Translations under genes and position numbers: made by a program
NCBI RefSeq assembly: GCF_003288845.1
Contig: NZ_NHYN01000003.1
Location: 62,001-126,000 of the forward strand
Direction: 5' to 3'
DNA: 64,000 bases
Origin: Helicobacter monodelphidis
GTDB taxonomy: Bacteria > Campylobacterota > Campylobacteria > Campylobacterales > Helicobacteraceae
Notes under the pieces: model-generated
The model's input: only the letters and a program-made list of their open reading frames with translations
Database searches by the model: none
Told to the model about the DNA's origin: nothing
In this document: positions 11,995 to 15,671 of the stretch, in pieces
Numbering within the stretch: position 1 is the stretch's first letter
Layout: each line of letters starts with the position of its first letter

Positions 11995-14418
11995 ATGTTA
12001 AAATCACTATGGGCAGGTGTGAGCGGAATGCAAGCACACCAAGTTGGTCTTGATGTTACCAGTAACAATATTGCAAACGTAAATACAACTGGTTTTAAAT
12101 CTTCTCGTGCAAACTTTGCTGATATGATATATCAACCAAGAAGGGGGGCAACAACTCCTCAAGGTGGATTAGGTGGGCTCAATGCTTTTACAATCGGTTT
12201 GGGTGGTAGCGTTAACTCTACAACAAGAGTTCACGAACAAGGTTCCTTAAAGTCTACAAACTGGAAGGGTGATCTTGCTTTAAGCGGTCAAGGATTCTTT
12301 ATTGTTAGTGGAGATGGCGGACGCACTCGTGCCTTAACACGTGATGGGCAATTTGGATTTGACGCACAAGGAAACTTCTTAAACAATGCAGGTTATATTG
12401 TGCAAGGTTGGACAAAAGACATTTCTTCTTTTGGCAAAACATGTGCAATCAATGAAAACCAAGTGGATACAAGCGGACCTATTTCAGGCATTCGTATCGA
12501 TCCTAAAATGGTTATGCCAGCAAGAATGACAGATAGCGTTAAAATTGCAGCAAGCTTAACCTCAAGCGACTACACAGATAATGTAGCTTGTTCTTACGCG
12601 CTTGATAGCAGTGGACATACCATCGCAAATGACAATAATAGAATCTATGATAGTAAAGGTAATAGAACGCAAGTTCCAGATGATATGGGAACTCTATTCT
12701 CTTCTGATGGAAATGCAATGAAACTTCAACATGGACAAGGCATTTGGGTCAGTTATAGAGATACAGAGCTTACAGCAGGTATCAACCAAGCTTATATTAC
12801 ATCAGCAACTGCAACTGTTACACAAAGCATCACACTGAACGGACAAAAAATTTCTTTTGTCAATAACTCAACCTCAACAAATGTAACAAGTGTGGAAGCA
12901 GCAATTAAAGCAATCAATAATTATACCGACAAAACAGGTATTAGGGCTTATGCAAGCGGTTCTACAGGAATTCAGCTTATTAATGATAACTCAATTGATG
13001 GGGATTCTAGCACAAAAAATATCCGCATTGGTGCTGTTATACCTGCTGATGGTGTGTTCTCATTCTTTAAAGATGTCACTATGCTTGATTCTTTTGGTGC
13101 TAAGGAGCTTCCAAATGGTGATATTGTACGCGAAACAGCATTTAACTACAAATACACAACGCAAAGCAACCTACAAATGACTTCTACACAAGGAAGAGTC
13201 TTTAATTCTACAGAAGACTTGCGTCGATGGATGCAATATGATGCAAATATCCAGAAGAACTCTCACGCTGTTTCTATGGCAGCTGCTGCCGGTGGACTTT
13301 TCCCTATTACTATCTCTAACTACTCTATTGCACCGGGGCAAACAGGAGCAGCAGGAACACTATCTCCTTGGGGGCAAGGGACAGCAACCAACCCGCAAGA
13401 GAGTTCAGCATGGACACGTTTGAATTCTGTCAGTGTAACAATGAATGAATGGGGACAATTTGTTATGCAAAACAATCAAGATGGATTGCTTGATGAAGAC
13501 ATTACACAAGTGCCAAATCCAGGACAACTACCGGGTCCAAATAGTGCAAACAACTTGAAAATCAATATTGCGAATTACCAAAGCAAGAAAGTACCAAGCA
13601 ATGTTTTATTTGGTAAGATGATGGGAGGATTAAATACAAGTGCATTAACAGAAGCTGGACCAGTAAGCTCAACAGGAAGCTTTAAAGTACCTAAACTCAC
13701 AACTTCCTTCGATATCTTTGATAGCTTAGGAAATAAGCACACTCTAACAGTTGAATTTAGAAAGAAAGATGATTTAGAGTGGACATTCAGCCTTAAGTTA
13801 CCAGAACCTGCGGAATTCACGCCACCTAATCCTGATATGCCAAATGTATTAGAAGGTGGAAGCATTACTTTTAACCGCAATGGTGGACTTCAGTCTGTGC
13901 AACCCAACAAATTCATCTTCAATCCGCGTTCAGGAGCAACTTCTCCACAAGAAGTTGATATCGACTTTGGACAAAATGGAGTTAATTCAGATTACAAGGG
14001 TGTAACAAGCACAAATGAAGAAAGTGCAGCGAGAAATCACGACCAAAATGGTTGGGCATCAGGGACACTCACAGATTGGAGCTTTGATGCAAATGGTATT
14101 TTAATTGGTGAATTCAACAATGGTAAGAATTTTGCACTTGCAAAAGTTGCTATCGGAACGGTAGCGAATGAATCTGGTTTGAATAGCTGGGGTAATAACC
14201 TCTTTGGAGTTTCTCCAAACTCTGGTGATATTGTTGTGGGTGAGGCAAATAAAGCAGGAAACGCAAATATAGAACCCTCAAAACGCGAACAATCCACAGC
14301 CGACTTGAGTGAGGAACTTACGCAACTTATTGTAATACAAAGGGGTTATCAAGCAAACTCCAAAACCGTAACAACTTCAGACCAAATTCTGAATACTCTG
14401 TTGCAGCTTAAGCAATAA
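11995..14418 (+). CDS. flgE: flagellar hook protein FlgE
   Basis: Polymerises into the flexible hook outside the cell after export by the flagellar type III system. The N-terminal D0 domain has the rod/hook signature LDVTSNNIANVNTTGFK, followed by FADMIYQPRRGA. The C-terminal D0 helix ends with TQLIVIQRGYQANSKTVTT and NTLLQLKQ. At 807 residues it is longer than enterobacterial FlgE (about 400) and comparable to the large hook proteins of Campylobacterota, the extra length lying in the surface-exposed central domains. Monocistronic behind a sigma-54 promoter, with AAAGGATG just before the start. A weak GGCTA...TAGCC hairpin follows the stop. Confidence 0.96.
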   Translation: MLKSLWAGVSGMQAHQVGLDVTSNNIANVNTTGFKSSRANFADMIYQPRRGATTPQGGLGGLNAFTIGLGGSVNSTTRVHEQGSLKSTNWKGDLALSGQGFFIVSGDGGRTRALTRDGQFGFDAQGNFLNNAGYIVQGWTKDISSFGKTCAINENQVDTSGPISGIRIDPKMVMPARMTDSVKIAASLTSSDYTDNVACSYALDSSGHTIANDNNRIYDSKGNRTQVPDDMGTLFSSDGNAMKLQHGQGIWVSYRDTELTAGINQAYITSATATVTQSITLNGQKISFVNNSTSTNVTSVEAAIKAINNYTDKTGIRAYASGSTGIQLINDNSIDGDSSTKNIRIGAVIPADGVFSFFKDVTMLDSFGAKELPNGDIVRETAFNYKYTTQSNLQMTSTQGRVFNSTEDLRRWMQYDANIQKNSHAVSMAAAAGGLFPITISNYSIAPGQTGAAGTLSPWGQGTATNPQESSAWTRLNSVSVTMNEWGQFVMQNNQDGLLDEDITQVPNPGQLPGPNSANNLKINIANYQSKKVPSNVLFGKMMGGLNTSALTEAGPVSSTGSFKVPKLTTSFDIFDSLGNKHTLTVEFRKKDDLEWTFSLKLPEPAEFTPPNPDMPNVLEGGSITFNRNGGLQSVQPNKFIFNPRSGATSPQEVDIDFGQNGVNSDYKGVTSTNEESAARNHDQNGWASGTLTDWSFDANGILIGEFNNGKNFALAKVAIGTVANESGLNSWGNNLFGVSPNSGDIVVGEANKAGNANIEPSKREQSTADLSEELTQLIVIQRGYQANSKTVTTSDQILNTLLQLKQ

Positions 14419-14526
14419 TTTTCAATGGCTAGGGCTTAGGGCTTTAGCCACCTCTTGGGTATTTTATGAGACATTCTGGCTTAGTAGATGTATGCCTCAT
14501 TTAAAAAATATTTCAAGATATTTTGG
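14419..14526. other. intergenic stretch after flgE
   Basis: The gap from flgE to the DUF2156 gene (14419-14783) holds a weak hairpin after flgE (GGCTA/TAGCC near 14427-14449), then the candidate small RNA at 14527-14604, then an AT-rich stretch with a TACAAT -10-like box about 30 bases before the next gene. No open frame of note is present. Confidence 0.5.
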
Positions 14527-14532
14527 TATAAT
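14527..14532 (+). promoter_or_regulatory. -10 box of candidate small RNA
   Basis: TATAAT in TTTTGGTATAATTTCG preceded by a T/A-periodic region. It lies only about 27 bases upstream of a strong intrinsic terminator, so it can only make a very short transcript. Confidence 0.6.
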
Positions 14533-14538
14533 TTCGTC

Positions 14539-14604
14539 GTTTCTCCTTTAAATAGTTTAACCTCCTATTCCAGTTCCTCCATTCTGAAATAGGAGGTTTT
14601 TTCA
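14539..14604 (+). ncRNA. candidate C/U-rich small RNA (RepG-like)
   Basis: A predicted transcript of about 65 nt that starts near 14539 and ends in the U-run at 14597-14602. The 3' half is a terminator hairpin: AACCTCCTATT (14559-14569) pairs perfectly with AATAGGAGGTT (14588-14598), with an inner CAG/CTG helix that presents a C/U-rich loop TTCCTCCATT (14574-14583). The 5' part contains another pyrimidine run, TTTCTCCTTT. Both are complementary to Shine-Dalgarno-type or G-rich mRNA sites. This resembles the design of H. pylori RepG, whose C/U-rich terminator loop binds a G-tract in the tlpB leader. No ORF is present. Expression is unproven. Confidence 0.6.
14559..14604 (+). terminator. intrinsic terminator of the candidate small RNA
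   Basis: An 11-bp perfect stem (14559-14569 with 14588-14598) followed by TTTTTTC. It is one of the strongest rho-independent terminators in the window and is 180 bp before the next gene, so it does not belong to flgE alone. Confidence 0.8.
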
Positions 14605-14783
14605 TTTTTATTAATCTGTTATCTTAATTTTTTGTTTGTGGTCATTTCTTGCGAAAATTATCGCTCTTTAAGTGTAATTATTACAAGCTTAGTCATCTTG
14701 TTTCATAAATTATCACATATAAGATTGTGTAAATAGTGTAATCCTGCTACAATTTCAAATAACAAAATACAGGCGAGGTTAAA

Positions 14784-15671
14784 ATGAATTTTAAACCCAT
14801 TTCTTTAGCAGATAAAGATTTGATTGAAAAGTATCAAAAAGAGGCGGATTATGAAATATCCGACATCTCTTTTACAAATTTATTTTTATGGAGTTTTTCG
14901 CGCTCTATCTCTTTTTGTGAAATTCACGACACCCTTTGCATTCAAACCACTTACCCCCAACAAAAACCTTTTTTATTCCTTCCATTAGGTAAGGGGGATA
15001 AAAAGGCAGCTTTAGAGGAAATTATTGCTTTTTATCAAAGTCAAAATCTACATTTTTCCATTCATTCTCTTAGTCAACAAATGAAAGAAGAGCTAGAACA
15101 AATTATGCCTAATCGCTTTACGTTCACTTATAATCGAGATCGCTCTGACTATGTCTACTCCATTCAAGAATTAGTTGAACTAAAAGGGCGAAAATTCCAT
15201 AAGAAAAAAAATCATCTTAATCGTTTCTATGAGGAGTATCCAAATTTTTCTTATCGAGTTCTGAACATTTCTAATCGTTTTGAATTGATTGAGGTATGGA
15301 ATAATTGGTTTAGCCATACACAAGAACCAACACAAGGATTAAAAAATGAATATATTGGCATCTTAAATGCGTTGGAAAATTTTGAAAATATGAATTTTAC
15401 ATGCGGAATTTTATATGTGAATGATGAAATTATTGCTTTTAGTTTAGGGGAACCGCTAAATCACAATAGTGTTGTGATTCATATTGAGAAAGCAAATATT
15501 TCTTATCATGGTGCATATCAGGCAATAAATCAATTATTTTTAGAAAAGCAATGGCAGAATTATGAATGGGTAAATCGTGAAGAAGATTTAGGAATTGAAG
15601 GATTAAGAAAAGCAAAAATGAGTTATCACCCTGCTTATCTTGTAGAAAAATTTGATGGTTTTTTAATTTAG
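14784..15671 (+). CDS. DUF2156 domain protein (phosphatidylglycerol lysyltransferase C-terminal-like)
   Basis: A 295-residue soluble protein of the DUF2156/LPG_synthase_C type, a double GNAT-like fold. Supporting features are the N-terminal SDISFTNLFLW segment, a central RKFHKKKNHLNRF motif, and the C-terminal WVNREEDLGIEGLRKAK motif with SYHPAYLVEKF. The membrane domain of full MprF proteins is absent, so true lipid lysylation is unlikely; an acyl- or aminoacyl-transferase role is inferred only. It has its own likely promoter and lies downstream of the candidate small RNA; the WYL regulator follows after 67 bp. Confidence 0.82.
   Translation: MNFKPISLADKDLIEKYQKEADYEISDISFTNLFLWSFSRSISFCEIHDTLCIQTTYPQQKPFLFLPLGKGDKKAALEEIIAFYQSQNLHFSIHSLSQQMKEELEQIMPNRFTFTYNRDRSDYVYSIQELVELKGRKFHKKKNHLNRFYEEYPNFSYRVLNISNRFELIEVWNNWFSHTQEPTQGLKNEYIGILNALENFENMNFTCGILYVNDEIIAFSLGEPLNHNSVVIHIEKANISYHGAYQAINQLFLEKQWQNYEWVNREEDLGIEGLRKAKMSYHPAYLVEKFDGFLI

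Follow-up and report, generated by a model that had tools for sequence, protein, structure and literature searches.

In this genome of the Helicobacter family (1.99 Mb in 131 contigs), the region that separates flgE (11995-14418) from the LPG_synthase_C/DUF2156 protein gene (14784-15671) contains a promoter-like box and a strong hairpin terminator, and raises the question of whether these elements serve one of the flanking genes or delimit a small RNA of their own, and in the latter case whether that RNA could be a relative of the H. pylori regulator RepG. A RepG-like RNA had been proposed here in a first-pass annotation of the window, i.e. the whole 64,000-nucleotide stretch of DNA that was analysed.

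The putative promoter has a -10 region of the extended (TGN) type, TTTTGGTATAAT, at 14521-14532 on the forward strand. Its TATAAT lies precisely at 14527-14532, is immediately preceded by TTTTGG, and is separated by 26 bases from the hairpin, confirming both the existence and the coordinates of the -10 box that had been claimed ahead of a strong terminator. TATAAT by itself occurs at about 0.08 per 60 nt of non-coding DNA and hence is not rare. The fuller pattern TTTTGNTATAAT, in contrast, is encountered only twice when both strands of the 64-kb window are counted; the 1.99-Mb genome has 24 copies, as against 9 of a reversed control pattern. Sixteen of these 24 copies lie outside ORFs, mostly a short distance 5' of a start codon, and the tRNA-Val gene of the same genome shows a nearly identical box, CTGGTATAATTGC. 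The copy at the present locus is the only intergenic one with a terminator within 200 nt.

This intrinsic terminator (14559-14603, forward strand) consists of a hairpin of 11+3 bp followed by a T-run, with arms at 14559-14569 and 14588-14598, extended by 14571-14573 and 14584-14586, the hairpin as a whole spanning 14559-14598. Statistics on terminators and targets were obtained from a 464-kb sample of the genome, in which start codons were called crudely. Among the 15 non-coding terminator-like hairpins of this sample with energies of -11 kcal/mol or lower, some of which are tRNA arms, that of the candidate ranks as the strongest. A consensus scanner with an obligatory -35 hexamer and loops restricted to 8 nt or fewer reported neither the candidate promoter nor the candidate terminator, both being absent from its list because of these two requirements.

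Taken together, promoter spacing, terminator and fold predict a non-coding RNA of approximately 66 nt on the forward strand, starting at G14539 and ending at about 14604. The fold of this segment has an energy of -17.7 kcal/mol, compared with -7.0 +/- 2.1 for shuffled sequences (z = -5.1). The predicted architecture begins with an unpaired, C/U-rich 5' tail of 20 nt, after which comes a single stable hairpin whose loop is likewise rich in C and U. Within the tail, the pyrimidine run TTTCTCCTTT (RNA UUUCUCCUUU; 14540-14549, forward strand) is unpaired and complementary to Shine-Dalgarno sites of the form AAAGGAGAAA. The 10-nt terminator loop, TTCCTCCATT (RNA UUCCUCCAUU), occupies 14574-14583 on the same strand. 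CUCC is found three times in the RNA, and the two unpaired copies, one in the tail and one in the loop, have complements resembling Shine-Dalgarno sequences. The locus accordingly displays the general hallmarks of an intergenic trans-acting sRNA, namely a promoter of its own, an intrinsic terminator and no ORF. These features support the earlier proposal of a short, terminator-bounded non-coding unit, and its C/U motifs in the 5' run and loop are exposed in the fold, as had been suggested. A search of the region against Rfam, under both strict and lax settings, recovered no match.

The phyletic spread of the candidate appears to be very narrow. BLASTN searches with the intergenic region against 58 relatives yielded only short AT-rich matches, and a gapped pattern combining the 5' motif and the loop, run against 121 genomes of the family, gave 3 other matches versus 2 for a control, with no convincing homologue. 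Orthologues of flgE and of the DUF2156 gene are present family-wide, yet are non-adjacent and have differing neighbours at the loci inspected. The nearest relative, a member of the same genus, appears by visual inspection to have an RNase P RNA gene on the opposite strand after flgE (L120), suggesting that the surroundings of flgE already differ inside the genus. As judged from these comparisons, the predicted RNA is lineage-specific, with no detectable homologue among the genomes searched. Both rapid turnover and a recent origin would fit this pattern, since even in the nearest relatives the DUF2156 protein is only about 60% identical.

Neither neighbour needs the candidate elements, because flgE possesses its own hairpin and the DUF2156 gene its own -10 box. 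The former, an 11-bp stem of -16.5 kcal/mol at 14426-14450 (forward strand), directly follows the flgE stop codon and probably marks the 3' end of flgE as opposed to being a part of the RNA; the latter is a TACAAT box at 14749-14754 (forward strand), the likely promoter of the DUF2156 gene. As the proximal hairpin has no clean T-run, transcripts of flgE could read through to 14604. It is therefore conceivable, albeit doubtful, that the downstream hairpin is only a distal terminator for such transcripts and that TATAAT is a chance occurrence or a weak, functionless promoter, a reading with which the frequency of the bare box and the lack of detected conservation at the locus are also compatible. 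The rarity of the full TTTTGNTATAAT pattern and its association with promoters speak against a chance box, and a hairpin just past the stop codon is often seen at the inspected loci of flgE orthologues and would form their 3' end. A terminator devoted to flgE read-through, which the first-pass annotation had named as one outcome that would count against an RNA, is at odds with flgE already having a probable 3' end of its own in the hairpin at 14426-14450. Alternatively, the promoter at 14527 might drive the DUF2156 gene, with the terminator deciding whether transcription continues. We regard such an attenuator leader as unlikely: even though the gene lies on the same strand with its start 180 bp away, and the CUCCU of the tail could pair with AGGAG in the 3' arm, this competing pairing comprises only about 5 bp against the 11+3 bp stem, and the fold of 14539-14784 reveals no alternative structure. 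Further points against it are the gene's own TACAAT box, the differing upstream regions of DUF2156 orthologues, and the finding of neither a leader ORF nor an Rfam element.

Like RepG (HPnc5490) of H. pylori, the candidate would be a short intergenic RNA whose terminator hairpin carries a C/U-rich loop, and both belong to one bacterial family; on these grounds it could be considered a relocated orthologue in this species. RepG, however, folds into two stem-loops, its loop of 18 nt includes the invariant core ACCUCCCCCUCCUU, and it is located mostly next to hsrA, whereas the candidate, situated between flgE and the DUF2156 gene, forms a single stem-loop whose 10-nt loop lacks the run of five C residues. 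A covariance model (R1) was built from 19 RepG sequences, with two-sided changes in 6 of its 7 consensus pairs; it gave no match at 14527-14604, in the source genome, or in its genus, and hence the covariance check that had been suggested for kinship came out negative at every level. The loop core ACCTCCCCCTCCTT is missing from the source genome and from genus g1, and the flank of hsrA in the source genome contains nothing RepG-like. A single exact CTCCCCCTCC occurs in the genome, inside a response-regulator gene. The chemoreceptor (MCP) leaders that were read contained no run of 5 or more G residues, some of the 12 loci being too short upstream. On this comparative evidence membership in RepG is refuted, its identity with the candidate being ruled out by the covariance model, the absent core loop, the stem-loop count and the neighbours; a relocated orthologue would be highly improbable. 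Of the proposed RepG-like design, the C/U-rich terminator loop stands, but kinship fails for want of a model match, the core loop, the second stem-loop and the position. A RepG-like mode of working, through pairing of the loop to mRNA leaders, may nevertheless apply.

In the published description RepG is situated between hp1043 and hp1044, and outside H. pylori is given for H. acinonychis, H. cetorum and H. mustelae only (PMC8295292). In H. pylori-type genomes we find it on the strand opposite to hsrA (HP1043). The suggestion that HP1044 might be a DUF2156 protein, and the position thereby conserved, does not hold, as the HP1044 equivalent in these genomes is a calcineurin-like phosphoesterase, and their DUF2156 gene sits elsewhere, away from RepG. 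The R1 model detects RepG in every genome of three genera, namely 34 of g7, 7 of g2 and 6 of g12 (one of the last weakly), mostly beside hsrA, and in g2 and g12 mostly divergent to it. The matches in these two genera (e.g. L194, L195, L206 and L213) indicate that RepG extends past the gastric group. The genus of the source genome has no detectable RepG, implying that RepG-type control is not transferable to it.

With a rare, promoter-associated TTTTGNTATAAT leading into the strongest non-coding terminator of the 464-kb sample, and with flgE having its own hairpin, we infer that a short orphan RNA is likely to be made at this locus. The reading that we favour for the unit at 14521-14604, at a probability of roughly 0.55, is that it encodes a lineage-specific trans-acting RNA of about 66 nt, distinct from RepG, which masks Shine-Dalgarno sites. 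A strong sigma-70 promoter would initiate the RNA at about 14539, and transcription would stop at the unit's own intrinsic terminator to yield the non-coding product. Its unpaired CUCC-type motifs could then pair in trans with the Shine-Dalgarno regions of a few mRNAs, and such pairing would lower their translation. If the RNA is made, masking of Shine-Dalgarno sites by the C/U motifs is our best guess as to its function. RsaE of Staphylococcus and Bacillus is a C-rich sRNA that masks Shine-Dalgarno sites without Hfq. The candidate would resemble RsaE-type sRNAs in its predicted use of unpaired C/U motifs against such sites without Hfq, but has no known kinship with them in sequence or structure and lacks any Rfam match. 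In H. pylori, which possesses neither Hfq nor ProQ, the sRNA RepG uses a C/U-rich loop for pairing (PMC8322730, PMC8295292). The mechanism has been worked out for few trans-acting sRNAs in Helicobacter, where these two proteins are absent (PMC8322730, for H. pylori). Should our reading be correct, the existence of so short an RNA with C/U motifs and no relationship to RepG would point to more than one origin of this design in Helicobacter.

Potential targets were sought through complements of the two motifs. The complement of the 5' motif is present in the leaders of L277/L324, L333 and L307. A perfect AAAGGAGAAA precedes the ATG in one chemoreceptor leader (L277), such sites being seen in 2 of 422 sampled leaders. 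The loop complement, ATGGAGGAA, has 31 genomic copies versus 21 for a control, mostly within genes, and shows no clear enrichment. The L307 leader (G000:C76 near 66569; L307:1497-1532, forward strand) contains AAAATGGAGGAATTTCATTAAAAAGGAGAAAAATTATG, with perfect complements to both 10-nt motifs in antiparallel order, ahead of a 66-aa glutamine-rich ORF that has no match in Pfam or NCBIfam. Both motifs had been specified in advance by the first-pass annotation, and none of the 422 sampled leaders has the two complements together, while the pairing energy at L307 is in the top 1.2% of leaders and no higher. The upstream site shares bases with a potential -10 box, TAAAAT, and might for this reason be untranscribed. 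We treat L307 as a lead rather than a result; simultaneous gripping of two sites in this leader, in which the tail would bind the Shine-Dalgarno sequence while the loop held a second site slightly upstream, is a long shot on present sequence evidence.

Several further features of the source genome were noted in passing. Homopolymers of 13 and 10 G residues (L320, reverse strand, 15301; L322, forward strand, 17204) are candidate phase-variable repeats. On the strand opposite to the tRNA-Val gene, and overlapping it, a segment (L334:16883-16992, reverse strand) matches the Rfam antisense RNA HPnc0260 above the gathering score. A second orphan module of TATAAT and terminator, at L334:8006-8068 on the forward strand (G000:C54:128006-128068), is purine-rich, has genes for a transporter and an OmpR-type response regulator on its two sides, and possibly represents another small RNA.
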